From Methanolobus psychrophilus R15 (GTDB lineage Archaea > Halobacteriota > Methanosarcinia > Methanosarcinales > Methanosarcinaceae): a stretch of DNA of 64,000 nucleotides. Where the stretch lies: contig CP003083.1 of NCBI GenBank assembly GCA_000306725.1, positions 2,170,001-2,234,000 of the forward strand, written 5' to 3'. Both the position numbers and the translations under genes were made by a program. Positions 15,135 through 51,250 of this stretch are shown in pieces (the first letter of the stretch is position 1; each line of letters begins with the position of its first letter). A model generated the notes under the pieces. The model searched no databases. It saw only the letters and a list, made by a program, of their open reading frames with translations, and was not told where the DNA came from.

Positions 15135-15923
15135 TCAAAAAGAGCTTAACAGGATCTCACTGATCTCTGCTATTACTTTTCCTGAATCGGTTAAATGAAT
15201 GTCTTTTTTCCGACCGCTCCTATTTGTTGAAACAAAGCCATCTCTTTCTAGTTTAGTTACGATTTGAGAGTATTTGTTTCTGTTAGAACCATTGTATTCC
15301 AAGGCAAGGCCATCCTCTACAAGTGACTTAAGTGATTTGTATTTTCCATCATCAGCAGTATTTATGGTCTCTAAGACATCTAATTCTATTTTACTGGGAG
15401 GTTGCATTTTTAATACAGGTATTTCATATGCCTCTTTAACTCCAATGCTCAAATACCTATTTTCTTCAACAAATTTATAAATCTGCTCCTTTTTTTGATC
15501 TAAGTCATCCAGATTCAGTAGTGGTAATATTTCTGTTGACATATATTTTTCTGCAGGAACATAATAGATTCTTGCAGAAAATAGAGAGGCAGCCATATAA
15601 GCGGCTTGAATAATTACTTTTGTTGATGAAGAAATATTGATATAAATCAATTCATCTTCACTTTCACATCGTAGAGCTGTAATAATCTTAGCAAAAGTCT
15701 TCATCGCATCAGCGAATTTAAATAACTCTGCTTTATGTTCGGAAACAGCTACGTGTTTTCCGACATTTTCTTCCACTGTCTCTTTTATTTTTATTGCTTC
15801 ACGTTCGATATCGGAGTCCTCAGTCCCCATTAGAAAGATGACCTTTGATGGAGCAAATTTTCTGAACCCCTCAATAAACCTATCAGGAGAGTCCAAGCCA
15901 ATTGGAACGATGTGAATAGTCAT
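15135..15923 (-). CDS. CARF-wHTH regulator, DUF6293-like, copy 1
   Basis: This 262-residue protein joins an N-terminal CARF-like Rossmann domain to a C-terminal winged helix. The CARF ligand loop is seen as YINISSSTKVIIQAAYMAA (residues 95-113), and the first strand reads IHIVPIGLDSPDRF. The winged helix occupies about 175-260 (SLVEDGLALEYNGSNRNKYS, then KLERDGFVSTNRSGRKKD). Such proteins (DUF6293/Csa3-like) are thought to sense cyclic oligonucleotides or similar nucleotides and control transcription. It is divergent from the membrane/nuclease operon that starts at 16052, with an inverted repeat between. No CRISPR effector genes are near. Confidence 0.78.
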   Translation of the reverse strand: MTIHIVPIGLDSPDRFIEGFRKFAPSKVIFLMGTEDSDIEREAIKIKETVEENVGKHVAVSEHKAELFKFADAMKTFAKIITALRCESEDELIYINISSSTKVIIQAAYMAASLFSARIYYVPAEKYMSTEILPLLNLDDLDQKKEQIYKFVEENRYLSIGVKEAYEIPVLKMQPPSKIELDVLETINTADDGKYKSLKSLVEDGLALEYNGSNRNKYSQIVTKLERDGFVSTNRSGRKKDIHLTDSGKVIAEISEILLSSF

Positions 15924-18632: not shown

Positions 18633-18893
18633 TTGTGGATATATTCTCATATCAATTACAATGCAAATATCTTCTATTATTATTAAATGATTAAATCTTA
18701 TCGACAGATAAGATGCTTTAGTTGATATTATTAATACTAATGGTGATGTGCAAAACAAAAGCTTCTTAGTATTGTATTGATTTAGATTAGTCAATTTGGA
18801 ATTTCAAAAAGGAATGGAAGATATATGATTCAATTGGATCAAACAGATGGCTTAATTTTTTTACAATATACGGAAGAACAAAGAATACCTGAA
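18633..18893. other. AT-rich intergenic sequence
   Basis: No gene is seen. A further TTTAGATTAG block occurs near 18781. A short frame from 18825 is interrupted quickly and is not convincing. Confidence 0.4.
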
Positions 18894-19070
18894 ACTTATC
18901 AATATACCACGTTTAGATCCTCATGTAGTATTCTTACATGAGATTAATCCCAGCAAGAACAGTTTAGCGTATGACCTACAAGAGCCTTTCAGGTTCCTTA
19001 TTGATCTTGCGGTTATCAGCCTGACTGAATCAGGGAAGATGGACAATAAAGAATTCATCAAGAAGGTTTA
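18894..19070 (+). pseudogene. cas1: cas1 fragment, middle region
   Basis: The open stretch translates to RLDPHVVFLHEINPSKNSLA, then YDLQEPFRFLIDLAVISL and ESGKMDNKEFIKKV before a stop. These are hallmark Cas1 sequences (the FLHE and NSLAYDLQEPFR region before the C-terminal catalytic part). No start, N-terminus or C-terminus is attached. The matching C-terminal region lies 3.2 kb away at 22270. I read it as a decayed CRISPR integrase gene. Confidence 0.85.
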
Positions 19071-19249
19071 AAAATCATCATGATGGGAATTACATATGTT
19101 GTCCTTGTGTGCGTTGACCATGGCTTTTGATGAGGCACAATTATTGAACAGATTGACCAAAGTGTGGGGAGTAAATAATTTCTATAGATGTCTCTTGCAT
19201 TCGAGAAATATGTTCAATCCCTGATTTTTGTAGAAAAGCTTAATATACT

Positions 19250-22136: not shown

Positions 22137-22270
22137 GCCACTTCGTAGAAATCTTCGTTTGAACAAAACATTAACCATTTATTTTTTTCCATTGCAAGCA
22201 ACACTTTGGGTTTTTATCCTTTTCAAAGCATCAAGTATTTTTCAACTGGAAATAGGTTTTCTACAGAGCT
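22137..22270. mobile_element. MITE, about 134 bp, copy 1
   Basis: The right end AATAGGTTTTCTACAGAGC matches the right end of the element at 63820-63951, and the left end (CGTAGAAATCTTCG) matches that element's left end. The length is the same. It separates the DUF3006 gene from the cas1 fragment, whose frame begins at its right border, so it probably inserted into or beside cas1. Confidence 0.6.
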
Positions 22271-22699
22271 GTTATTGCCCTAGTTAAATCTGAAAGAATG
22301 GATAACAAGGACTTGGTTAGGACTGAAAGTTACTCACTCAGGCTCAAGCCTTCAGGAGCAAAGAAAGTAACTGAAGAGTTCAACAAGTGGATGAACAGGA
22401 AAACATATCAGAAACATTCTTTTATGTGGAGTTATGCCTTGTTATTGAAAACTAGAGAACTTGTTCAGTTCCTTATTGAAAAGAAAAAGACTATTAATTT
22501 TTGTAAGCCTGCTTATGCCATTGGAAGACAGGATTCAGAAGAGATGATGCGAAATATATTGAATATTTCTTATACCAAAGGGGAGAATATGGGATTTTCT
22601 AAGGGTACATTGCATTATATGAAGAAGAATGCTAACGCTAATAAGCCATTTACTTTAAATGCTCATGTAAGGGAACGGTTGAAGATGCGGGATAATTAG
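22267..22699 (+). pseudogene. cas1: cas1 fragment, C-terminal region
   Basis: From the MITE border the frame reads AVIALVKSERMDNK, then RTESYSLRLKPSGAKKV, FNKWMNRKTYQ, RELVQFLIEKKKTINF and MGFSKGTLHYMKKNA, ending FTLNAHVRERL. This is the C-terminal domain of a Cas1 integrase. An ATG at 22298 allows a 133-residue product, but the N-terminal domain and the first catalytic Glu region are absent, so it should be inactive. There is a small deformity at ISYTKGENMG where other copies have a Trp. Confidence 0.85.
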
Positions 22700-24167: not shown

Positions 24168-24293
24168 ATGAAGATGCTGAGTACTTCCTATTATGCGTTT
24201 AAAAAACAGATATATAGGGATACGTTGCATTACTGGAAGAAGAATGCTGAGTATCTTCATAACAAGACTCATTTTTACAATAAATCTGTATAA
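24168..24293 (+). CDS. possible 41-residue basic peptide
   Basis: A frame from ATG 24168 reads MKMLSTSYYAFKKQIYRD then TLHYWKKNAEYLHNK and ends at 24293. It is Tyr/Lys/His rich. A short similarity to the Cas1 tail (TLHYMKKNAE) is noted, so it may be a further cas1 scrap rather than a gene. No strong ribosome site is present. Confidence 0.25.
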   Translation: MKMLSTSYYAFKKQIYRDTLHYWKKNAEYLHNKTHFYNKSV

Positions 24294-27539: not shown

Positions 27540-28259
27540 TCAAATCATCACGAACCGCAGCGTAAACTCCCCATCAGGTGTTATACAATACTCAACTTCC
27601 TTTTCGCTACCTTCTCGAAATTTTTTTTCAATTAACTTCCATTCAATCAAGTCTGAAATCAAGGAATTAAAACCAGTTGGAGAAAGTGTTCTTTTAGTTT
27701 TACTGGCTGACTTAACAGGGGCATACTTGGCACATAAGTCATGATACAACTTCTTTTTTGCATAATATTTTCCTGATTTACTATTAAGTATCTCAAGAAT
27801 GGTCACTCTGTTTGGATTTTTCTTAAAATCAGCCATATGAACTTTTGGTATGGGTATTAATCTGGAATCTTTGTCGATACCAACATGATAGGGAATTGCA
27901 TCAATCCATAATGCCATCATAAAAAGGCCAATTGAAAGACCTTTAGTTCCACTAGATAAATTAAAGTAGTACTGAGCATCCCGATTTTTTTCATATATTG
28001 ATAAAACTGCATCTCTTATATAGTCAAGAGTATCATCAACAATTTTAACAACTTCTATGCCATCTTCAACAAATGGATTTGCTATTTCCTTCAGTTTATC
28101 AATTGAGTCCAGTATTTCTTTTTTTCCATAGTTATAAACACGATCTTCTACAATCACATACAATTTAGTGACATAGGAAATATCATTGAGTACTGTAGGA
28201 AACGTCTCATGGATACTTTGCCCAGCACTCATAATGTGAATTCGTTTCTTCTGACTCAT
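27540..28259 (-). CDS. CARF-wHTH regulator, DUF6293/Csa3-like, copy 2
   Basis: This 239-residue protein has an N-terminal CARF-like domain with strand RIHIMSAGQSIHETF and ligand loop YYFNLSSGTKGLSIGLF (N100 to K106, the N-x-SSGTK signature), then a winged helix at about 150-235 (VTILEILNSKSGKYYAKK, then LSPTGFNSLISDLIEWKLI). It is divergent from the viperin operon with a 106-base shared promoter holding two palindromes, so it probably controls that operon in response to a nucleotide ligand. It is only distantly similar to the 15135 protein. No Cas10 or ring nuclease is near. Confidence 0.8.
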   Translation of the reverse strand: MSQKKRIHIMSAGQSIHETFPTVLNDISYVTKLYVIVEDRVYNYGKKEILDSIDKLKEIANPFVEDGIEVVKIVDDTLDYIRDAVLSIYEKNRDAQYYFNLSSGTKGLSIGLFMMALWIDAIPYHVGIDKDSRLIPIPKVHMADFKKNPNRVTILEILNSKSGKYYAKKKLYHDLCAKYAPVKSASKTKRTLSPTGFNSLISDLIEWKLIEKKFREGSEKEVEYCITPDGEFTLRFVMI

Positions 28260-28280
28260 CCGATTCCTCGATTAAAATTT

Positions 28281-28305
28281 ATCTAATTTAGATTAGATAT
28301 ATCTA
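28281..28305. promoter_or_regulatory. twin palindromes in CARF/viperin promoter
   Basis: ATCTA-att-TAGAT (28281-28293) is followed directly by the perfect palindrome TAGATATATCTA (28294-28305). Both share the core TAGAT. They lie 22-46 bases before the CARF start and 61-85 bases before the viperin start, a good place for an operator serving both directions. Confidence 0.55.
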
Positions 28306-28365
28306 TTAATAAATAGTTTTTGTCTAAAAAATATTGATATTGAATGTTTTGAATAGTAAGAATTG

Positions 28366-29208
28366 ATGACTGGAAACAAAATTCAATCAGTAAACTGGCA
28401 TATAACAGGGAAATGCAATTACAACTGTAAGTTCTGCTACGTTCAGAATCTCAATGCTGAAATTAAGGATATTGAGACAGCACATCAAATATTACATAAA
28501 CTAAGGTACACCAAAACAGATCAACTCGATATACAGAAGATCAATTTTGTTGGTGGGGAGCCATTCCTTCATCCTAATTTTTACGACCTCCTGTCAATGG
28601 CATATGATATGGGGTTTGTTACATCTATTGTTACAAACGGATCATTTATCAACAAAGACAATATTGAAAAAATTTCCCGATATACTGATTGGATTGGTAT
28701 TTCTGTAGACTCTATTGATAACCAGGTAGAAGCAGAACTCGGAAGAGGTAGAGGAAAACATGTAACTCACGCTCTGGAAGTTGCAGATCTTGTTCACGAT
28801 CACGGGATTAAACTGAAAGTGAATACGACAGTTACAAGACCAACCTACAAAGAAGATATGCATAATCTGATAGAGACAATGGATCCGCATAGATGGAAGA
28901 TATTCCAGATGCTCCACATCGAAGGCCAGAACGATTCATGTGTCAGTGATTTATCCATAACCGATCAACAATTTGAATCTTTCAGAATACGTCATCAAGA
29001 TATTCGCCTGCAGAACAATATAAAACCGACTTTTGAAACAAACGATGACATGATTGGTTCATATTTAATTCTCGATCCAGCAGGGAAGGTATTGTCCAAC
29101 GGTGATGGAAAATATACTCCATTTGAACTTGATCAATTCCTCTTAAATCCTGCTGTTGTAGTTAATTCAAGGAAATATGTAGGAAGGGAGGGTGTCTATG
29201 CCTGGTAA
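28366..29208 (+). CDS. prokaryotic viperin (radical SAM ddh-nucleotide synthase)
   Basis: This 280-residue protein is a viperin homologue. Hallmarks are SVNWHITGKCNYNCKFCY (C17, C21, C24 for the 4Fe-4S cluster), KINFVGGEPFLHP, TSIVTNGSFI, DWIGISVDSID, ELGRGRGKHV, and the viperin-specific DPHRWKIFQMLHIEGQND and GSYLILDPAGKVLSN. Human and prokaryotic viperins remove the 3'-OH region of a nucleoside triphosphate to form ddh-nucleotides, which stop viral RNA synthesis. I start at ATG 28366; no clear ribosome site is seen, so it may be leaderless. It overlaps the kinase gene by 11 bases. Which NTP it uses cannot be told. Confidence 0.93.
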   Translation: MTGNKIQSVNWHITGKCNYNCKFCYVQNLNAEIKDIETAHQILHKLRYTKTDQLDIQKINFVGGEPFLHPNFYDLLSMAYDMGFVTSIVTNGSFINKDNIEKISRYTDWIGISVDSIDNQVEAELGRGRGKHVTHALEVADLVHDHGIKLKVNTTVTRPTYKEDMHNLIETMDPHRWKIFQMLHIEGQNDSCVSDLSITDQQFESFRIRHQDIRLQNNIKPTFETNDDMIGSYLILDPAGKVLSNGDGKYTPFELDQFLLNPAVVVNSRKYVGREGVYAW

Positions 29209-29776
29209 AGATAAAACCTCTCCGTCCTTTCGAAGATTTTGTTTTACAGGAGTAAGGGGTGTAGGGAAGAGTACTGTAATAAACCGAATACGTTCAAGCG
29301 TTCCAGACATTAAATTCGTTTCTGGATCAGATATGCTTCAGGGTATGATGGGAGAGGACTACAAGCATTTTGAATATCTTCCTGAAGAGGAAAAGTATGC
29401 TTTAAGAATAAAGCTCAATAGCATGCTGCAGATTATACAGAAGGATGCTGCAAAAGATCTGGTTGTTGATTCACATCTTACAGTTTTCAATCTAAACACA
29501 GATGTAATTGATACTATCTTTACTGAGAAAGACTTTGAATTTTATACAGACATCATCTTGCTGGATTCTTATCCTGAGAAGATCTACGACCACCGTGCAA
29601 GAGATTTTTCTAAAAAACGGATTGTTGACAAGGAGATCATCGCAAAAGAACTTGATACCGAAAAGCAAGAAGCATTCCGAGTTGCTTCTGAATATAATAT
29701 CAGACTGCATGTCATTGAGATGGGAGATGAAGCTGATGAGAAGATGATCAGTGTGTTATATGGTGGTATGGGATGA
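29198..29776 (+). CDS. P-loop nucleotide kinase-like protein of viperin operon
   Basis: This 192-residue protein has a Walker A TGVRGVGKST (about residues 17-26) and looks like an NMP or deoxynucleoside kinase fold: VDSHLTVFN is the substrate/Walker-B-like strand and HRARDFSKKR a lid-like basic loop. Nucleotide kinases are known neighbours or fusions of viperins (CMPK2 in animals, kinases beside some pVips), where they supply phosphorylated substrate. I chose ATG 29198 because GGAGGG lies six bases upstream; a GTG at 29192 is possible. It overlaps the genes on both sides (11 and 4 bases), so the three are tightly coupled. Confidence 0.82.
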   Translation: MPGKDKTSPSFRRFCFTGVRGVGKSTVINRIRSSVPDIKFVSGSDMLQGMMGEDYKHFEYLPEEEKYALRIKLNSMLQIIQKDAAKDLVVDSHLTVFNLNTDVIDTIFTEKDFEFYTDIILLDSYPEKIYDHRARDFSKKRIVDKEIIAKELDTEKQEAFRVASEYNIRLHVIEMGDEADEKMISVLYGGMG

Positions 29777-30525
29777 TTAACCTGACAGAAGGATTTCTTC
29801 CAGGCAGAGTTATTGATGTTGTAAATTGGCACATCACACCAAGATGCGGGTACAATTGCAAGTTTTGTAATGTTCACAATTGCTACTTTGAAATTCGAGA
29901 TATGAAATATGCAAAGAAGAATCTAAAAAAATTGAAAGAATTGGAGGAGCAGGATGTTCATATAAATACTTTGAACATTGCAGGAGGAGAGCCCTTACTT
30001 CATCCTAATTTATTTGACCTTTTGAAGATGGGAAATGAAGAAGGCTTCAATCTCTGGATAACAACCAATGGCACTCTGCTGAATGAAACGAATATTGATC
30101 AGCTGAGCAACTATATTGATGGGATCTCAGTTTCCGTAGATTGTATCAGTAATATCAAGCAAAAAAAGATCGGTCGAGGTTATGGAACGCATGTGTCAGA
30201 GATGCTCAATGTTTCAGATCGGATACATGATACAGGGATCAAGCTTGGTGTGAACACTTTAGTTACAAAACTAAACTATAAAGACGATCTTCATGCCCTT
30301 CTTCATAGGCTTGACCCATATCAATGGAACGTTTATCAAACCCTCCCTTGCCTTTATCAAAATAACTATCTAAGGAGCATAGAGGTCAATGAGAATGATT
30401 TTTACCTTTTTTTAAGAAGACATAGCCATTTAAGGTTTGGGCCATGCAATGAGCCTACTTTTTGGTCAAAAAACGACATGCAGAAAAAATACTATTTTCT
30501 GGTAGATGGGACAATAAGGATTTGA
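29773..30525 (+). CDS. second viperin-like radical SAM protein, C-terminally short
   Basis: This 250-residue paralogue has VVNWHITPRCGYNCKFCN (C25, C29, C32), NIAGGEPLLHP, LWITTNGTLL, GISVSVDCIS, KKIGRGYGTHV and DPYQWNVYQTLPCLYQNN in the place of the viperin substrate segment. It ends soon after PTFWSKNDMQKKYYFLVDG, where the first viperin has a further 40 residues, so the C-terminal substrate region is missing or minimal. All cluster cysteines are kept. It may act on a different substrate or modify the first product. ATGA overlap with the kinase stop. Confidence 0.82.
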   Translation: MINLTEGFLPGRVIDVVNWHITPRCGYNCKFCNVHNCYFEIRDMKYAKKNLKKLKELEEQDVHINTLNIAGGEPLLHPNLFDLLKMGNEEGFNLWITTNGTLLNETNIDQLSNYIDGISVSVDCISNIKQKKIGRGYGTHVSEMLNVSDRIHDTGIKLGVNTLVTKLNYKDDLHALLHRLDPYQWNVYQTLPCLYQNNYLRSIEVNENDFYLFLRRHSHLRFGPCNEPTFWSKNDMQKKYYFLVDGTIRI

Positions 30526-30589
30526 GAAGTTTATTAATAACTAAATATAATAACATTAGATATATACATGTACTAAAGGGGACAAACAA

Positions 30590-33500
30590 ATGATAGATTC
30601 AATTTCAACAACCGATTTTTTCAACCTGAACTTACGCGAGAGATTTTTTTTAGAAAGAGAACTAGAGATTTTGCCTTATCATTTGAGAAAAAACAACACC
30701 AACAAAAATCAAAGGATACTTGAAGATCTTTTCATAAACAAGGTCCTCAGCGATCCACATTTTAGCATGTATGTTTCTAAACAAATAGAAGGCAGTGACT
30801 TTGATCTCAAAGACGTTTTTGCGTACTTAAGTTATGTTTTGTTAGAAAATTATCTCTCCAAGAGTCCCTTGTTGAACAACATAGAAGTAAAAGAAAGAAA
30901 CTTGAATTTAGAACAAGCTCTCGATAAAAGAAACTTTGACTATTTCTCACTAAAAAGTAGTACGTACTACCACGACAAAAGGGATTTCAAAAAAGCTATA
31001 GATGCTCTTCCTTTCAGAGGAGAAGGAATAAACAATCGTTGGTACAAAGGTTCATTGCTCAACTGGGATGCGGTAATGGAGATTCCTTATTATTCTTTAA
31101 GATCTGAGGAAAAAGTTGAATATCAGATGTTTGAAACAACTCATGCCCTTGAGAGTCTTGAAAATTTAGCAGATTTTCGCGATGAACATAGGTTCATATT
31201 TGAAAATATAGAGTCTAATTTTAGATATGATAGACAAACCGAATATATGAACATAAACGCTCCATTGTTTGGTTTTCTAAATAGTAGTACTGGTTTTATT
31301 TCATCTATCAAAAACCTACTTGAAAAATATGGATATCACAGGGACTTTAGTAATGATGAAATTGGGAAATACTTCAAAATATATACGGATTCTATTTTAA
31401 TCGGACAGTTCTATTGGTTTGTATCTCTTAATCAGAATCAAATGCTTTCGTTATTAAACGCATATTATGATGAACAGGGTCTATCATTTAAAGAGGAAAA
31501 CCTTAACATCTTCCCAAATTCTAAACTGGTTCATTACTTTGTTTATTCCAATGTAAGGTGTATATGTGATAAGAAAGACTATAATGAAGCCATTAATCTC
31601 CTGAATAAACTAAGTGAATCAACAGATGATATGTTCCTTAAACACCTGTGCTTTTTATGGACAGGGGATATCTATCAGGAAAGAAACGATTTTGATTTTG
31701 CTGCAAGTGCTTTTAATAAGGCCTATGAACTTGCTAGGGACAATGATCTAACAAGAGATGATGAACTCCGTTTTTTGTATGAAATAGTATCAGGTAAGAA
31801 ATCTCGAGTCGCTGAAGAACAAAATAAGAAATATGTCAATCTCTTGGAAGCCGCAGAAATGTATCACCATGCAGGCAATGTAAACAAATCAAATGAATTG
31901 ATTCAACAATTGAATAGTGAACTGCACTCATTGTCTATTCCAAAACAGATGCATGTATGGTATGATATTTATCTTGACATATATTCTAGACAGGAAAAAG
32001 TCAGTGGGGCAATATTAAACAAGATCATTGAACTTGCAGGCATATTTAACGATTCAAATTCAGATTATCTTGAAGAAGATATGGAAATAATAGATTGTTC
32101 TGTGTGGGATAAAAATGTCTCAAGAATGGACTGCATTGTAAAACACATAAACCACTTGAAAACGATTGCTGAAGAGAATAAAAAGAATTTAGACTCAAAA
32201 AATCTAGACCTTACTGCTGATTTATTTGTTATGAATCGTTTTTATGGTGGAAAATATCAATTCAATGAAAAAACAATCACTGGACAATTATTATCTTCAA
32301 TGGGTTTAATTCGTGATGTCATTCACATTGATGATACGATTCCCTTTCTATTTGCTCCCAACAAACGCCTAGAAAAGATTGAAACAGCTATTTGCGAGAT
32401 TGAATCAATGGACAAGGATGAACATGTAAATATTGCAAATCTTTATACTGGATCAATTTCTGACGTAGTACAAAGATTGAAACTAAAACAAGCTAGATGC
32501 TATTATCTTTTGAATAAAAATGATTCTGCACAGGACATTTTGAAAGATATTTTGGATACTGCAACTGAAGTTGGAGTTCAATATCATGCACATTGTGTGC
32601 TTGGAACCATTTTTGCAAAAAAGCAGATGGTTGAAGATTCAATTGAACACTTTAAGCTAGCTATTGATAGTAAGTATTTATCAGAATCAGGCTCTGGAAT
32701 AGTGATTGAATATTGTAGAGATGAACTTTTACAATCCGTTTCGAAAGAACTGTTTTTCGAAACCGTAGACTCTATAATTGATCACATAAACATGAAATCT
32801 AAAGATAGATCATATAAAGACAACGGTTTTTGGCAAGCAGTTGATCTATGCAATCAATTCGGACTTACCGAAGAGTCTCTGCATTTTATTGAACGTGGGC
32901 TTTTAGAAAAAGATGAATTTGTGAAGTCGAAGTTACTTGAAGAAAAAGCATATATAAAGTACCTTGATGGAAATCTAGATGCATCTCAGGAATTATTAGA
33001 GGTAGCAAAACAAGAAATTAAATCAGTTATTGTAATGAAAAACACAGAATATCGTGAGCTCTGCTCTTCAATTTTCCATAAATCATCAATCATAGCGGGA
33101 AAACGGCTTGATTTCAAGAAAGCAGAAAAAGATATGGAGATGGCAATTAAGATTTTGGAAAATTCTGCAGGTAAGCAAGAGAACTCTAAATTAAAATGTT
33201 ATAGTAGATTAAAAGATGTATATCGCAATCTTTCCAAGAATGTAATCGAATATAACAAAATAACGGATCCTGATGTAGTTACTATTCTTAAAACGGGGGA
33301 AATGATTGTTTCAGATTTGTTAAATGGTGCACGCAACAGAAAAATAGATTATTCCCTAGCACTTGCAGAATATGGTAAAGGTCTAGAAACTGCACTAGAT
33401 AAAGTTATAACAGCAGCTCTTAGAGAACATATATTTTCGCTACATACACAAAAACCTATTGAAGATTCATACTTTAAAGGTGAAGGCAAGTTTAAAAATG

Positions 33501-33835
33501 AAGGTATATCATATGTTTCTCCATATGGATTAAAAGACGCATTGAACTGCAATGAGCATAAAACAATCTCACTTGGTAGTTGGAAAGGTTTTATTCAAGA
33601 TGAGATACTCAAGTCGAAAAGCTATAAAAACCCATATTTGAAAGATTCTTATGAGTTTTTACGAGGTTCCAAGTCAAAAGAAGAATGGAATGTAATAGCA
33701 GAAAATTGTGCGGTCGTTAAGGAATACCGCAATGGTTCTTCACATTATGGAACAAAGAAGATAGACTATATTTTTGAAAAGAGAGCAGATACTATCAGAA
33801 AAATAAATGAAATTATCGATATACTTTATCCTTAG
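30590..33835 (+). CDS. large TPR protein with C-terminal HEPN RNase motif
   Basis: This 1081-residue protein is mostly helical. TPR-like units are seen between about 330 and 860, for example KDYNEAINLLNKLSE, RNDFDFAASAFNKAYELA, DSIEHFKLAIDSKY and LDFKKAEKDMEMAIKILE. The end (about 900-1081) contains EYRNGSSHYG with R1047-N-x3-H1052, the R-N-x3-H form of the HEPN RNase motif. The first 300 residues are unrecognised. It follows the viperin operon by 64 bases with its own AAGGGG ribosome site and an AT-rich promoter-like gap. A TPR sensor joined to a HEPN RNase would fit abortive defence. The HEPN call rests on motif and position. Confidence 0.6.
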   Translation: MIDSISTTDFFNLNLRERFFLERELEILPYHLRKNNTNKNQRILEDLFINKVLSDPHFSMYVSKQIEGSDFDLKDVFAYLSYVLLENYLSKSPLLNNIEVKERNLNLEQALDKRNFDYFSLKSSTYYHDKRDFKKAIDALPFRGEGINNRWYKGSLLNWDAVMEIPYYSLRSEEKVEYQMFETTHALESLENLADFRDEHRFIFENIESNFRYDRQTEYMNINAPLFGFLNSSTGFISSIKNLLEKYGYHRDFSNDEIGKYFKIYTDSILIGQFYWFVSLNQNQMLSLLNAYYDEQGLSFKEENLNIFPNSKLVHYFVYSNVRCICDKKDYNEAINLLNKLSESTDDMFLKHLCFLWTGDIYQERNDFDFAASAFNKAYELARDNDLTRDDELRFLYEIVSGKKSRVAEEQNKKYVNLLEAAEMYHHAGNVNKSNELIQQLNSELHSLSIPKQMHVWYDIYLDIYSRQEKVSGAILNKIIELAGIFNDSNSDYLEEDMEIIDCSVWDKNVSRMDCIVKHINHLKTIAEENKKNLDSKNLDLTADLFVMNRFYGGKYQFNEKTITGQLLSSMGLIRDVIHIDDTIPFLFAPNKRLEKIETAICEIESMDKDEHVNIANLYTGSISDVVQRLKLKQARCYYLLNKNDSAQDILKDILDTATEVGVQYHAHCVLGTIFAKKQMVEDSIEHFKLAIDSKYLSESGSGIVIEYCRDELLQSVSKELFFETVDSIIDHINMKSKDRSYKDNGFWQAVDLCNQFGLTEESLHFIERGLLEKDEFVKSKLLEEKAYIKYLDGNLDASQELLEVAKQEIKSVIVMKNTEYRELCSSIFHKSSIIAGKRLDFKKAEKDMEMAIKILENSAGKQENSKLKCYSRLKDVYRNLSKNVIEYNKITDPDVVTILKTGEMIVSDLLNGARNRKIDYSLALAEYGKGLETALDKVITAALREHIFSLHTQKPIEDSYFKGEGKFKNEGISYVSPYGLKDALNCNEHKTISLGSWKGFIQDEILKSKSYKNPYLKDSYEFLRGSKSKEEWNVIAENCAVVKEYRNGSSHYGTKKIDYIFEKRADTIRKINEIIDILYP

Positions 33836-34089: not shown

Positions 34090-34272
34090 TCCTATAATTT
34101 CAAAGGACATAAGGCAAAAGATACTAAGCATCTCTTATACAGATTGGGAGAATATGGGATTCTCCAAAGGTACTCTCCATTACATGAAGAAGAATGCTGA
34201 AGTTGATAAGCCATTTACTCTTAATTGCTCATGTTAAGGAAAGGTTGGAAGGATGGAGTAAGCATATGGTGG
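34090..34272 (+). pseudogene. cas1: cas1 fragment, extreme C-terminus, frameshifted
   Basis: The frame reads DIRQKILSISYTDWENMGFS then KGTLHYMKKNAEVDKPFTLN, then shifts. Ignoring one T near 34220 restores AHVKERLEGWSK. This is the tail of Cas1, more regular here (TDWENMG) than in the 22267 fragment, so it comes from a second cas1 copy. It is cut on the left by the hairpin element. Confidence 0.8.
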
Positions 34273-46769: not shown

Positions 46770-48284
46770 TCACTTTTCAGTTATTAAACACGCTTTCAGT
46801 TTATCGTTCAGTGCCTCCATCTTTACCTGGATATCATTTTCATATGCCTGCAGCCTGCCGTAAAGAACATCTGCTGGCTCGTAGTCGGTTTCTTCGTAAT
46901 TCATCTCTGTGTACTTGGATATGCTCAGGTCGTATCCATTTCCACGGATCTCATCTCCAGGAACAAAGAAACACTTGCCAGTACGGTCAGAAAAGTCCTG
47001 ATTTTCCCTGTCATGGAACTTTTCGATGATATCAGGTATATCGCCCTTACCATCGACGAAGGTCCGTTTGTCGTCAAGTGTGAACCCGTCAGACTCCATG
47101 CGGTAGAACCAGACCTTTTCAGTGGGTTCACCTTTGGTAAAGACAAGTATTCCCGTAGATACTCCTGCATACGGCTTGAAGACACCAGAAGGCATGGATA
47201 TGACCGCATCCAGCCTGCACTTGTCAAGGATCATCTCACGAACGCCTCTATGAGCTTTACTGCTTCCGAACAGGACACCATCAGGAACAATGACGGCACA
47301 GCGTCCACCAATCTGCAAGAGTTCAAACATCTGCTCAATGTAGAGCAATTCGGTCTTGGTAGTGGTGACCTTGAACTTGCCTTTGATCTCTTCCTCGTTG
47401 ATACTGCCCTTGAAAGGCGGATTTGCCAGTACCAGGGTGTATTTACCCTTTTCCTTGTCACATTCGACCAGGCTGTTACGGTGGGATATGTGCGGATTCT
47501 TGATACCGTGCATCATCAGGTTCATCATAGCAATACGGACCATTGTCTGATCAATGTCGGAACCGTATAGTGTGTTGTTGAGTAACGTTTCCCATTCATC
47601 TTTGCTCAGTTTATCTCCCACAAAATTGTGTTCGAATCCCTGTTCATCGACCTCAATGAATTTGGGTGATGTATATGTTTTCAATATATGCAGCAATGCT
47701 GAAATGATGAAACCAGCAGTACCACATGCAGGATCGCATATCTTGTCCGACCGTAGGTTCGGTAAGCGCAGCATTAGTTTCCTTATATGGTTTGGGGTCC
47801 TGAACTGACCGTTCTTACCTGATGTTCTAAGCTCACTCAGGATATATTCGTAGATGTCTCCCTGAGCATCCCTGTTCTGTTCAAGAATATGGAGATCTTC
47901 TATGATCTTTACGGCCTCAGAGAGGAGTGCACCCGTTGGGATTACGAATGAAGCATCTTCCATGTACTTGGAATAAAGGGTGTTGTCCCCGTTCAGTTTC
48001 TTCAGGAAAGGGAACACAATAGTACGTACATGTTCGAGCATGTCGTTGGCTGGATATTCTTTCCAGATGGACCATTTGCAATTCTCATGACCTTCAAGGA
48101 TGGACTGGTAGCTTTCACCCCTCAGCCGAGCCTTATTCATGCCCTGAATATCTTCGTCCTCGATCCTCTTCATGAAGATAAGGTACGATATCTGTTCGAT
48201 GGCTGTAAGCGGATTGGAGATACCATTGCTCCAGAAACGGTCCCACAGCTTGTTAATGTCGGATTTCATCTTAGGATTTAGCAT
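46770..48284 (-). CDS. hsdM: type I restriction-modification methyltransferase HsdM
   Basis: This 504-residue protein is a type I DNA adenine methyltransferase subunit. The SAM motif DPACGTAGFI lies near residue 180 and the catalytic NPPF in LANPPFKGSINEEE near 287; the N-terminal helical HsdM domain (WDRFWSNGISNPLTAIEQ) is present. Length is normal. No intact hsdS or hsdR lies near. An hsdS tail overlaps its start, so the specificity subunit was lost and the enzyme should have no target unless another HsdS is elsewhere. Codons are GC-richer than the flanks. Confidence 0.9.
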   Translation of the reverse strand: MLNPKMKSDINKLWDRFWSNGISNPLTAIEQISYLIFMKRIEDEDIQGMNKARLRGESYQSILEGHENCKWSIWKEYPANDMLEHVRTIVFPFLKKLNGDNTLYSKYMEDASFVIPTGALLSEAVKIIEDLHILEQNRDAQGDIYEYILSELRTSGKNGQFRTPNHIRKLMLRLPNLRSDKICDPACGTAGFIISALLHILKTYTSPKFIEVDEQGFEHNFVGDKLSKDEWETLLNNTLYGSDIDQTMVRIAMMNLMMHGIKNPHISHRNSLVECDKEKGKYTLVLANPPFKGSINEEEIKGKFKVTTTKTELLYIEQMFELLQIGGRCAVIVPDGVLFGSSKAHRGVREMILDKCRLDAVISMPSGVFKPYAGVSTGILVFTKGEPTEKVWFYRMESDGFTLDDKRTFVDGKGDIPDIIEKFHDRENQDFSDRTGKCFFVPGDEIRGNGYDLSISKYTEMNYEETDYEPADVLYGRLQAYENDIQVKMEALNDKLKACLITEK

Positions 48285-48729: not shown

Positions 48730-48753
48730 TTAAGCATCGTGAAAAGTCAAAAG
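48659..48753. repeat. direct repeat spanning helicase gene end
   Basis: GTTCAGATGATTTAAAACGC (48659) and GTTCAGATGATTTAAGCATC (48719) are followed by nearly identical GAAAAGT blocks, 60 bases apart. The second copy contains the stop and last codons of the helicase gene. It could be an att-type duplication or local duplication. Confidence 0.4.
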
Positions 48754-50292
48754 GTAATAGCGGCGGGGTACCAGGCCGCCGCCACGGGGATAAATTGGGC
48801 AATCTGCGCCAACAAAAACCAGTTTATCCAGGTCCACATAGCCCTTATTGAACAAACCGCGAACGTTGATCTGGATCTTTCGGGCGCGTGTCCTACCCAC
48901 GAAGTCCAAAGACGCAAGCTGCGATTTGTCGGATCCTGCCTGTTTCACCCAATAATTAGGAAGTTCTGGATTACTAATAGCAAGTTCAAACGTGCCCCCC
49001 TTTGCTCCATGGAACGTGTCACACGCACGTGGATGGAATGGATCATCGTGGTTGTTACGCATGATTGTACCCATACGGGCTACCTGGGCATTGGTAGGGG
49101 CAATAAATGCAGCCTTCTCAATCTCTTTGCCGCTAAAGGAATTCATGATATCGATAAACCCACGTTCGCCCCTGACGTTGATTACTTCATCATCATTGCA
49201 TTCCAATGGGTTAATACCATCTACATTATAAGGTGCGCGGGTATACGGAATAAGCCATTTAGCGTCTGCCCATATATTCTGTCCATATCTGTAAATTGTA
49301 TCCAGACAATCCGTTCTATACCGTGGGAACTCCAATAACTCGTCGGGTGAGGTGCCCTGAAATGAAAATACGCATTGTGCGACGTCCCCGACTATATATG
49401 CTCGAGTAACAGTAGGACTGGCAATCCAGTTCGAAACGATCATCCACTGCAGCGGGGTAAGATCATTAGCTTCATCGATTATAATTATATTCTCGTCGGG
49501 TGTGTAGCCTTCCACTGCGACTTCTACCAGTGTATCAGTATAATCAATGAACCCATGTTCACTCTTCCAATTCTCATATGCAATAGCATGTTTGATAAAA
49601 GCATTTACAGACAGACCATGTTCACTACTACGTGTCATGTCATTAGTATACGACTTGTATGTAGGCTCATGTCCACCATGATCTTTAATGATACTGCGAT
49701 AAATACTTTTAATACCATCTACTGACGGAACGCATTGTTTATCTGAAGCGCGCCAATCGAACACTTCACCCATATAGCTATTGCGGATACGATTCCATAA
49801 TTGAACTGAAGCACCAAATTCAGTCTTTTTTAGCCGATCACAGACATCGTCGGGTACTTTCATCAATTCTTTTAACTCCTGCCTGGAATACTTGCGATCA
49901 TATGCCATTTCCACAAGATAGTCCAGATCTAACTTGTCTTTTTTGGCATATAATCCCATCAACACTTTTTCCTTGATGTAACTACCATCAGGATCACCTG
50001 TCAATTGTGCACATTGGGATTGAATGGTCTGACCATCTTCACCATATTCGGATACAGCCATATTGGAATGTGAAAATACGCGGCATCTGTTTCCGTTTGC
50101 TACTTCATCATAGAATGTTTCTCGGACCCATGTCGTCTTTCCAGTTCCCGCTGTACCATACACAACCTGGGTTTTTGCACCGACAATATCAGTCGAACCA
50201 TAGTCGATTTCAGTATTCTCACGTTTAAGGTTACTGTTCTCACATAAAAGGTTACACTTATCGCGTATAGGGGTACGTTTCTTGGTTTGCAT
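48730..50292 (-). CDS. superfamily 1 (UvrD-like) helicase, virus/plasmid type
   Basis: This 520-residue protein is a compact SF1 helicase. Seen in order: Walker A YGTAGTGKTTW, Walker B IIIIDEANDLTPLQW, motif III YIVGDVAQCVFSFQG, and a late motif ACDTFHGAKGGTFELA (the THGAKG-like motif V), then RTRARK near the end for the arginine motif. It lacks the long insertions of chromosomal UvrD, like phage Dda-type or viral enzymes. I start at ATG 50292, where GGTGAT lies three bases upstream. It is the first identifiable function of the 48.7-52.9 kb module. Confidence 0.78.
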   Translation of the reverse strand: MQTKKRTPIRDKCNLLCENSNLKRENTEIDYGSTDIVGAKTQVVYGTAGTGKTTWVRETFYDEVANGNRCRVFSHSNMAVSEYGEDGQTIQSQCAQLTGDPDGSYIKEKVLMGLYAKKDKLDLDYLVEMAYDRKYSRQELKELMKVPDDVCDRLKKTEFGASVQLWNRIRNSYMGEVFDWRASDKQCVPSVDGIKSIYRSIIKDHGGHEPTYKSYTNDMTRSSEHGLSVNAFIKHAIAYENWKSEHGFIDYTDTLVEVAVEGYTPDENIIIIDEANDLTPLQWMIVSNWIASPTVTRAYIVGDVAQCVFSFQGTSPDELLEFPRYRTDCLDTIYRYGQNIWADAKWLIPYTRAPYNVDGINPLECNDDEVINVRGERGFIDIMNSFSGKEIEKAAFIAPTNAQVARMGTIMRNNHDDPFHPRACDTFHGAKGGTFELAISNPELPNYWVKQAGSDKSQLASLDFVGRTRARKIQINVRGLFNKGYVDLDKLVFVGADCPIYPRGGGLVPRRYYLLTFHDA

Positions 50293-51250
50293 TGTATCAC
50301 CGTTATTCAATTATATAATAGGTAGATTATAATATATCAGTGATGATTATATATACCTTTCCAATTCGCACCATAACCCCAACCCCACATTCCCGTACCA
50401 CATCCCCACGCTCATATCCCCAAACCACATCCCCAACACCCGACGTTTGCCATCCTGTGTGGCAAGAGTTCGAACCAATAAAACGGGCGAAAATTGGCAA
50501 AATTTCGTGTCTGTTTTCTTGGGGTAGGACTTATCCGTAGATGTATTGTAGTCATGGGTTGGTAGGTCGTTTTCCCGTTATAACGGGCAGGAATCATTCA
50601 CGTATCGATTGTGTTCAAACAAATAAAACGTTCATAGACGTTTACCCTTTATAAAGGGAAATACATCCACGATCAGTTAAAACTGAACAGTCTATAGATT
50701 TTGTTTGACCGTACCTAACGGGCTGGCTTTTTCTTATATTATATAGTATTTTATGTAACTAACGTAACGGTATCCCCCATATAATTTATAAAAAATCTCT
50801 ATAATATATGGCAAAACCTCGGGGTTGGGGAAAATGTTCAGGAAAATGTGGGAAATTGGCGGGCAAAACATCGGGGTTGGGGAAAATGTGTAATTCCGTA
50901 AAATTTGGTAATGAATATACCGATTTATGTAACGCATCAGTCTAAAATATGTTAAGTAAAGATGGGTGTCTATCGGCGGGAATTGTTAAGTTTGGTAACG
51001 GATGTAACGATTTAGGCATGTTTTTTGCATATGTTTTTTTAGGCCTTATTTCGTTACATCTATTACGCGTTTGTCCAGATTCCGTATGCTTCGCCTTCGA
51101 ACTTATCGTGTCTTTTTTGACTGATGCGTTACATATTTCGACTTTGCGTTACATGATTTTTACATAACGGTCCAGATTCCATATGTGTCGGGTTCGAACT
51201 TATTGTATATGTATGTAACGCATTTTAAACAGTGTGATGCATATTTTTAC
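50293..51250. other. non-coding region with GC-rich repeats, candidate origin
   Basis: No gene is supported. It holds a C-rich stretch near 50378 (CCCCAACCCCACATTCCC, then CCACATCCCC twice) and two direct copies of TCGGGGTTGGGGAAAATGT (50820 and 50873) that are its approximate inverse. Palindromes CCCTTTATAAAGGG (50645) and CCCGTTATAACGGG (50573) and many GTAACG words follow. Such repeats between replication genes suggest an origin or packaging site. Confidence 0.5.

Follow-up and report, generated by a model that had tools for sequence, protein, structure and literature searches.

Viperin, an enzyme producing chain-terminating nucleotides, is among the few antiviral enzymes common to humans, bacteria and archaea. 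What, then, does an archaeal operon gain from a second viperin-family protein encoded close behind an intact viperin? The question is raised by a locus in Methanolobus psychrophilus R15, whose genome is one contig of 3,072,769 bases (CP003083.1); the locus occupies positions 27540–33835 of the window, i.e., the whole 64,000-nt stretch of DNA analysed here. We find that it is a real, recurrent defence operon of known kind, and that what is new is viperin 2, a paralogue of viperin whose nucleotide site has been rewritten and which moves together with a probable TPR-HEPN RNase. The reading we favour, tentatively and at slightly less than an even chance, is that of a two-module viperin-based antiviral defence operon, in which a CARF-viperin-kinase core is combined with a viperin 2/TPR-HEPN cassette and viperin 2 has a gating role.

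An original prediction, made from the DNA letters, had listed five open reading frames with overlaps of 11 and 4 nt and a divergent CARF gene. All of these were confirmed, and profile matches agree with the parts it named (viperin, CARF-winged helix-turn-helix (wHTH) regulator, nucleotide kinase and TPR protein with a HEPN-like motif). The features are as follows:

27540..28259 (−): CARF-wHTH regulator, Csa3-like, 239 aa, divergent from viperin 1
28260..28362 (no strand): divergent intergenic promoter region
28366..29208 (+): viperin 1, canonical; Fe-S and substrate-site residues checked, all retained
29198..29776 (+): P-loop nucleotide kinase, VakA/archaeal adenylate-kinase-like
29773..30525 (+): viperin 2, altered paralogue
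30590..33835 (+): TPR protein, 1081 aa, with a probable HEPN domain at its C-terminus
33191..33832 (+): C-terminal all-helical HEPN-like domain, residues 868–1081 of the TPR protein
33728–33745: RNGSSH motif, residues 1047–1052 of the TPR protein

For viperin 1, the start codon ATG 28366 was favoured over TTG 28363. The kinase is better started at ATG 29198, which overlaps the end of viperin 1 by 11 nt (GTG 29192 is also possible), and the start of viperin 2 overlaps the kinase end by 4 nt (ATGA). Because this arrangement recurs across many genomes, it is not a product of chance.

The altered nucleotide site of viperin 2

We compared 36 intact viperin loci. The window's own order contributed 19 of them, the window among these, and the rest of the phylum 17; fragments were excluded. 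With the NCBIfam model for prokaryotic viperins, NF038283 (cut-off 180), viperin 1 scored 272 bits; it also matched PADLOC pVip (E 2.7e-78) and viperins in the PDB (E down to 5.9e-42). It carries the CX3CX2C cluster motif and retains N76, K119, K219, R244, K246 and Y301 (these positions in human viperin numbering; mouse positions are one higher). Judged by these residues, it is a canonical viperin and a predicted maker of 3′-deoxy-3′,4′-didehydro (ddh) nucleotides. The same set is nearly invariant in the ordinary viperins: N76, the three cysteines, K219, R244, K246 and Y301 were found in 36 of 36, and K119 in 35. By the mouse viperin structures, K119, K219, R244, K246 and Y301 serve nucleotide binding and catalysis. 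A pattern search of viral contigs with viperin 1 returned no match that encoded a relative. Separately, an isolated 86-aa viperin C-terminal fragment was seen at another genome position (L067:6754-7014, minus strand).

Viperin 2 reached 178 bits against the viperin model, just under its cut-off, and matched PADLOC pVip with an E-value of 3.4e-58. The "twin viperin" label of the original prediction misleads, since residues with which viperins engage the nucleotide triphosphate are missing from the second copy. In the window copy the CX3CX2C motif (C25, C29, C32), N76 and Y301 are kept; Lys119 is replaced by Thr, Lys219 by Gly, Arg244 by Gln and Lys246 by Asn, and about 40 C-terminal residues are gone. 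Second copies of this kind fall into two classes. Class A (window, G113b and G170) has T/C/C at position 119, G/G/A at 219, Q/Y/R at 244 and N/N/N at 246, and its tail from Y301 on comprises 11, 12 and 23 residues, where ordinary viperins have 40–77. Class B (G184, G137 and G118) keeps positions 119 and 219 and has K at 244, E/E/E at 246 and, in two members, C in place of Y301. Lys246 is thus missing from all six, and all six retain the cluster cysteines, the GG(E/D)P motif and Asn76. The tree separates the second copies into two clades (two label changes), which points to two origins of viperin 2; as Lys246 became Asn in one clade and Glu in the other, this position must have changed twice. 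On these residues, viperin 2 is best described as an evolutionary relative of viperins and is not classed as a ddhNTP synthase.

The ratio of nonsynonymous to synonymous substitution rates (dN/dS) of viperin 2 was 0.36 between G137 and G118 and 0.08, with saturated synonymous divergence, between the window and G113b, indicating purifying selection rather than decay. In the close pair G137 and G118, the corresponding values were 0.20 for the TPR protein and 0.09 for viperin 1.

Among the alternatives, the one that survives best, although we consider it unlikely, holds viperin 2 to be a working radical SAM enzyme that acts on something else, e.g., the viperin 1 product, an oligonucleotide (cyclic or linear) or a nucleotide lacking the gamma-phosphate, and yields a second signal or poison. 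In its favour, CX3CX2C, GG(E/D)P and Asn76 are conserved in all six second copies, and in class B the change of Lys246 to Glu would disfavour a gamma-phosphate while Lys119 and Lys219 of the site are kept. Class A, however, alters several conserved positions together and lacks the C-terminal tail. Furthermore, G205 encodes yet another downstream viperin-like protein (L128:9774-10517, 92 bits), treated here as a single case unrelated to the class A and B copies, in which only one of the three cluster cysteines is left; a copy in this position can thus be retained without such chemistry. Searching 199 genomes of its order for this protein recovered the protein itself and otherwise only weaker matches (at most 27% identity among the best), and most of the comparable ones sit at known viperin loci.

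Viperin 2 and the TPR gene are exchanged as a cassette

The partners of class A and those of class B each form one clade in the TPR tree (support 100/100 each). The kinase and CARF trees mix the two viperin 2 classes, and 0% of their bootstrap trees unite either class. The viperin 2 class thus matches the TPR type in 6 of 6 loci, and CARF, viperin 1 and kinase do not match. Two natural swaps show where the parts join. Between G113b and G137, protein identity is 81% for CARF, 91% for viperin 1 and 89% for the kinase, compared with 38% for viperin 2 and 23% for the TPR protein, and the DNA similarity (87%) that sets in at the CARF stop codon breaks off after the first 103 nt of viperin 2. The reverse is seen in L049 and L063, where a block of 90% identity runs from the 3′ part of the kinase through the TPR gene although the viperin 1 copies belong to separate clades; therefore, viperin 2 goes with the TPR gene and not with viperin 1. 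The kinase of L063 (10799-11330; G132) has an internal deletion between the P-loop and the remainder, close to the cassette junction. Viperin 2 and the TPR gene are, in sum, co-inherited and swapped as a cassette, whereas the CARF-viperin-kinase core to which they are joined has a tree of its own; such swaps reveal which genes of the locus belong together.

This exchange bears on the suggestion that the locus is an ordinary PADLOC-type archaeal viperin-TPR system, with viperin 2 and the cassette exchange incidental to duplication and recombination in a defence island. We rate this as rather improbable, a little below the active-enzyme alternative. The original prediction knew of no described system with this full set; that claim did not hold, since PADLOC models every component type and a 2026 census, which cites Bernheim et al. 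2021, names viperin plus TPR as the sole system type exclusive to archaea (PMC12988326). CARF, kinase, TPR and viperin are thus all covered, the parts list is not new, and defence islands recombine frequently. What an incidental origin leaves unexplained is the strict agreement of viperin 2 class and TPR type, which none of the other three genes shares. PADLOC carries neighbouring accessions for pVip "associated with kinases", pVip "not associated with kinases", a pVip-kinase fusion, TPR, Csa3 and VakA, which suggests one curated viperin group.

Core, regulator and probable RNase

The original prediction joined the CARF, kinase and TPR genes to viperin, and linkage counts (tallied by hand from the locus tables) bear this out beyond the window. 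A CARF gene adjoins viperin in 28 of the 36 loci, divergently in 26 and upstream on the same strand in 2. The kinase was found in 12 loci, every one in the family of the window, and viperin-linked TPR genes in 21, all of them at CARF loci. Of the CARF homologues in 17 genomes that carry viperin, all 14 strong ones adjoin a viperin gene (one weak 38-residue match does not). In L133 and L134, the TPR gene is replaced by a stand-alone CARF protein and a helicase resembling MkoA of Mokosh, which suggests a constant core with exchangeable partners. In these loci (L133:10045-13474, L134:5966-9423) CARF-wHTH and viperin come first, followed by the stand-alone CARF protein and the MkoA-like helicase, a possible tie between viperin and Mokosh-like modules.

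The kinase matched PADLOC VakA (E 8.5e-24) and Pfam AAA_17 (E 9.6e-12), and also the adenylate kinase model PRK04040 (1.3e-8, under the cut-off). For the regulator, the CARF identity rests on PADLOC Csa3 (E 4.6e-77, residues 10–237, i.e., the whole length including the C-terminal winged helix); the DUF6293 assignment of the original prediction was not borne out at threshold, as Pfam HFX_2341_N/DUF6293 scored 22.4 with a cut-off of 30. The CARF-wHTH protein may control the operon, presumably in response to a nucleotide ligand. Type III CRISPR is an unlikely source of this signal in the present genome, because profiles of Csm1 and Cmr2 had no match in it (other Cas10 subtypes were not searched). 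Within 13 CARF-viperin genomes, full-length Csm1 occurs only in G044, and G184 has a weak partial match. A second CARF/HFX_2341-type protein with a DUF6293 winged helix, without adjoining viperin, is encoded at window positions 15135–15923 (minus strand; Pfam E 1.3e-18 and 2e-10).

These data make it improbable, more so than the incidental origin considered above, that two working viperins make terminators, switched on through CARF by a nucleotide messenger and flanked by an RNase side arm, as originally proposed. Both proteins do match viperin models and the CARF gene is divergent, but the second copy lacks residues found in 36 of 36 ordinary viperins, and the genome has no Csm1 or Cmr2 match.

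The TPR protein matched PADLOC TPR (E 1.4e-31), best over its C-terminal half, and a PDB search with the full-length AlphaFold2 model returned TPR superhelices (E 4.2e-6, with low TM-scores). The R and H of its RNxxxH motif (RNGSSH) are invariant in 21 aligned homologues of about 20–53% identity. In the model of the C-terminal domain, which is all-helical with a predicted local distance difference test (pLDDT) score of 81, the motif lies at the end of a long helix. Pfam searches with single domain members gave HEPN_Apea as the best match (E 0.0042) and HEPN_Swt1 second (0.032). Hence, the C-terminus is probably a HEPN domain, and the protein would be a candidate RNase. HEPN-like domains also occur behind an unrelated N-terminal region and away from viperin (L146:7533-9545, L147:6240-8207). 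A pattern search of viral contigs with the TPR protein had no match.

The operon is flanked by a 127-nt direct repeat (window 22534–22660 and 34099–34225, 77% identity, 11,565 nt apart), with a third, partial copy at 24215–24248. As weak Cas1-profile matches lie at 22256–22489 and 18886–19071, the copies resemble leftovers of Cas1-like genes, perhaps casposon-related ones. A type I HsdM-like methylase and a UvrD-like helicase are encoded at 46770–48284 and 48730–50310 (both minus strand), placing the operon inside a larger defence-like island.

A proposed two-module operon and its relation to known systems

Gene content, recurrent linkage, the residues lost from viperin 2 and the joint inheritance and swapping of viperin 2 with the TPR gene are computed results. 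The mechanism that we infer for the favoured two-module reading, from enzyme products and CARF ligand to control direction, RNase activity and gating, is the following. In the core, the CARF-wHTH regulator would bind a nucleotide ligand, from a source other than type III CRISPR here, and switch the divergent promoter; viperin 1 would produce a ddh-nucleotide chain terminator, and the VakA kinase would feed or re-phosphorylate the ddh-nucleotide pool. In the interchangeable cassette, viperin 2 would no longer bind nucleoside triphosphates in the manner of viperins and would instead partner the TPR-HEPN protein, most likely as its sensing or gating partner, so that the HEPN RNase acts upon infection or in the presence of ddh-nucleotides. 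A broader version, which we hold to be doubtful though not less likely than any rival, is that viperin paralogues with an altered nucleotide site arose repeatedly beside active viperins and act as the sensor or the lock for a TPR-HEPN RNase that can itself be exchanged. A single operon would then tie the making of chain terminators to an RNA-cleaving arm under the gating control of a pseudoenzyme derived from viperin.

Several observations weigh against this two-module reading. Foldseek with the HEPN-like domain gave no significant fold match; the best E-value was 1.1, and the PDB matches, including Csm6, HepT and a HEPN toxin, were all above 1. A search of the PDB with the HEPN-like sequence profile gave no match. 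In the divergent promoter of the window, TATCTAAT-TTAG-ATTAGATA (in 28260..28362) is a putative operator palindrome, and shuffled sequences do as well (p about 0.19); related loci have palindromes of up to 2 × 15 nt there, which beat shuffles in L050, L056, L062 and L063 (p 0.005–0.015, uncorrected for multiple tests). Viperin 2 is missing from 15 of the 21 TPR loci, so the TPR protein does not always depend on it. The cassette is drawn from three loci per class, the roles of the lost viperin 2 residues come from viperin structures and not from a computed model of viperin 2, and the antiviral function is putative.

That viperin 2 is a functionless, decaying duplicate is highly improbable: its truncated C-terminus, lost active-site residues and higher dN/dS than viperin 1 in one close pair (0.36 and 0.09) fit decay, but the open frame with its overlapping start, purifying selection, the same position changed in two independent origins and co-inheritance with the TPR type disfavour it.

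The locus offers a testable division of labour between a constant CARF-viperin-kinase core and an exchangeable pair of altered viperin and probable RNase.

The HEPN-like domain shares with HEPN RNases (Csm6, HepT, Apea-like, Swt1-like) the RX4H motif ending a long helix and an all-helical domain, but matches none of them significantly in fold or profile; of a HEPN motif ending the TPR protein, the literature searched contained no description. Nor did that literature mention tandem or paralogous archaeal viperins, VakA with viperin, or an altered viperin exchanged along with a probable RNA-cutting partner; Bernheim 2021, Shomar 2024 and Makarova 2020, which lie outside it, may mention twins. 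Like Csa3, the CARF-wHTH regulator of archaeal CRISPR, the regulator here matches Csa3 over its whole length and is divergent from its operon, whereas its neighbour is a viperin and neither Csm1 nor Cmr2 was detected in the genome. In bacteria, viperins occur next to HicA or RelE RNases (PMC10865869); here, too, a viperin stands alongside a predicted RNA-cleaving partner, which is archaeal and of another nuclease type (a probable HEPN with TPR). As in pVip (Bernheim et al. 2021) and PADLOC viperin plus VakA, viperin 1 and the adjoining kinase match the family models, while an additional altered viperin lies between kinase and TPR gene. Another close relative is the archaea-only viperin-TPR system (PMC12988326): the same PADLOC TPR family protein lies downstream of viperin, and a viperin adjacent to it, taken here as the mark of viperin-TPR, is present at the window locus, which in addition encodes CARF, kinase and viperin 2.

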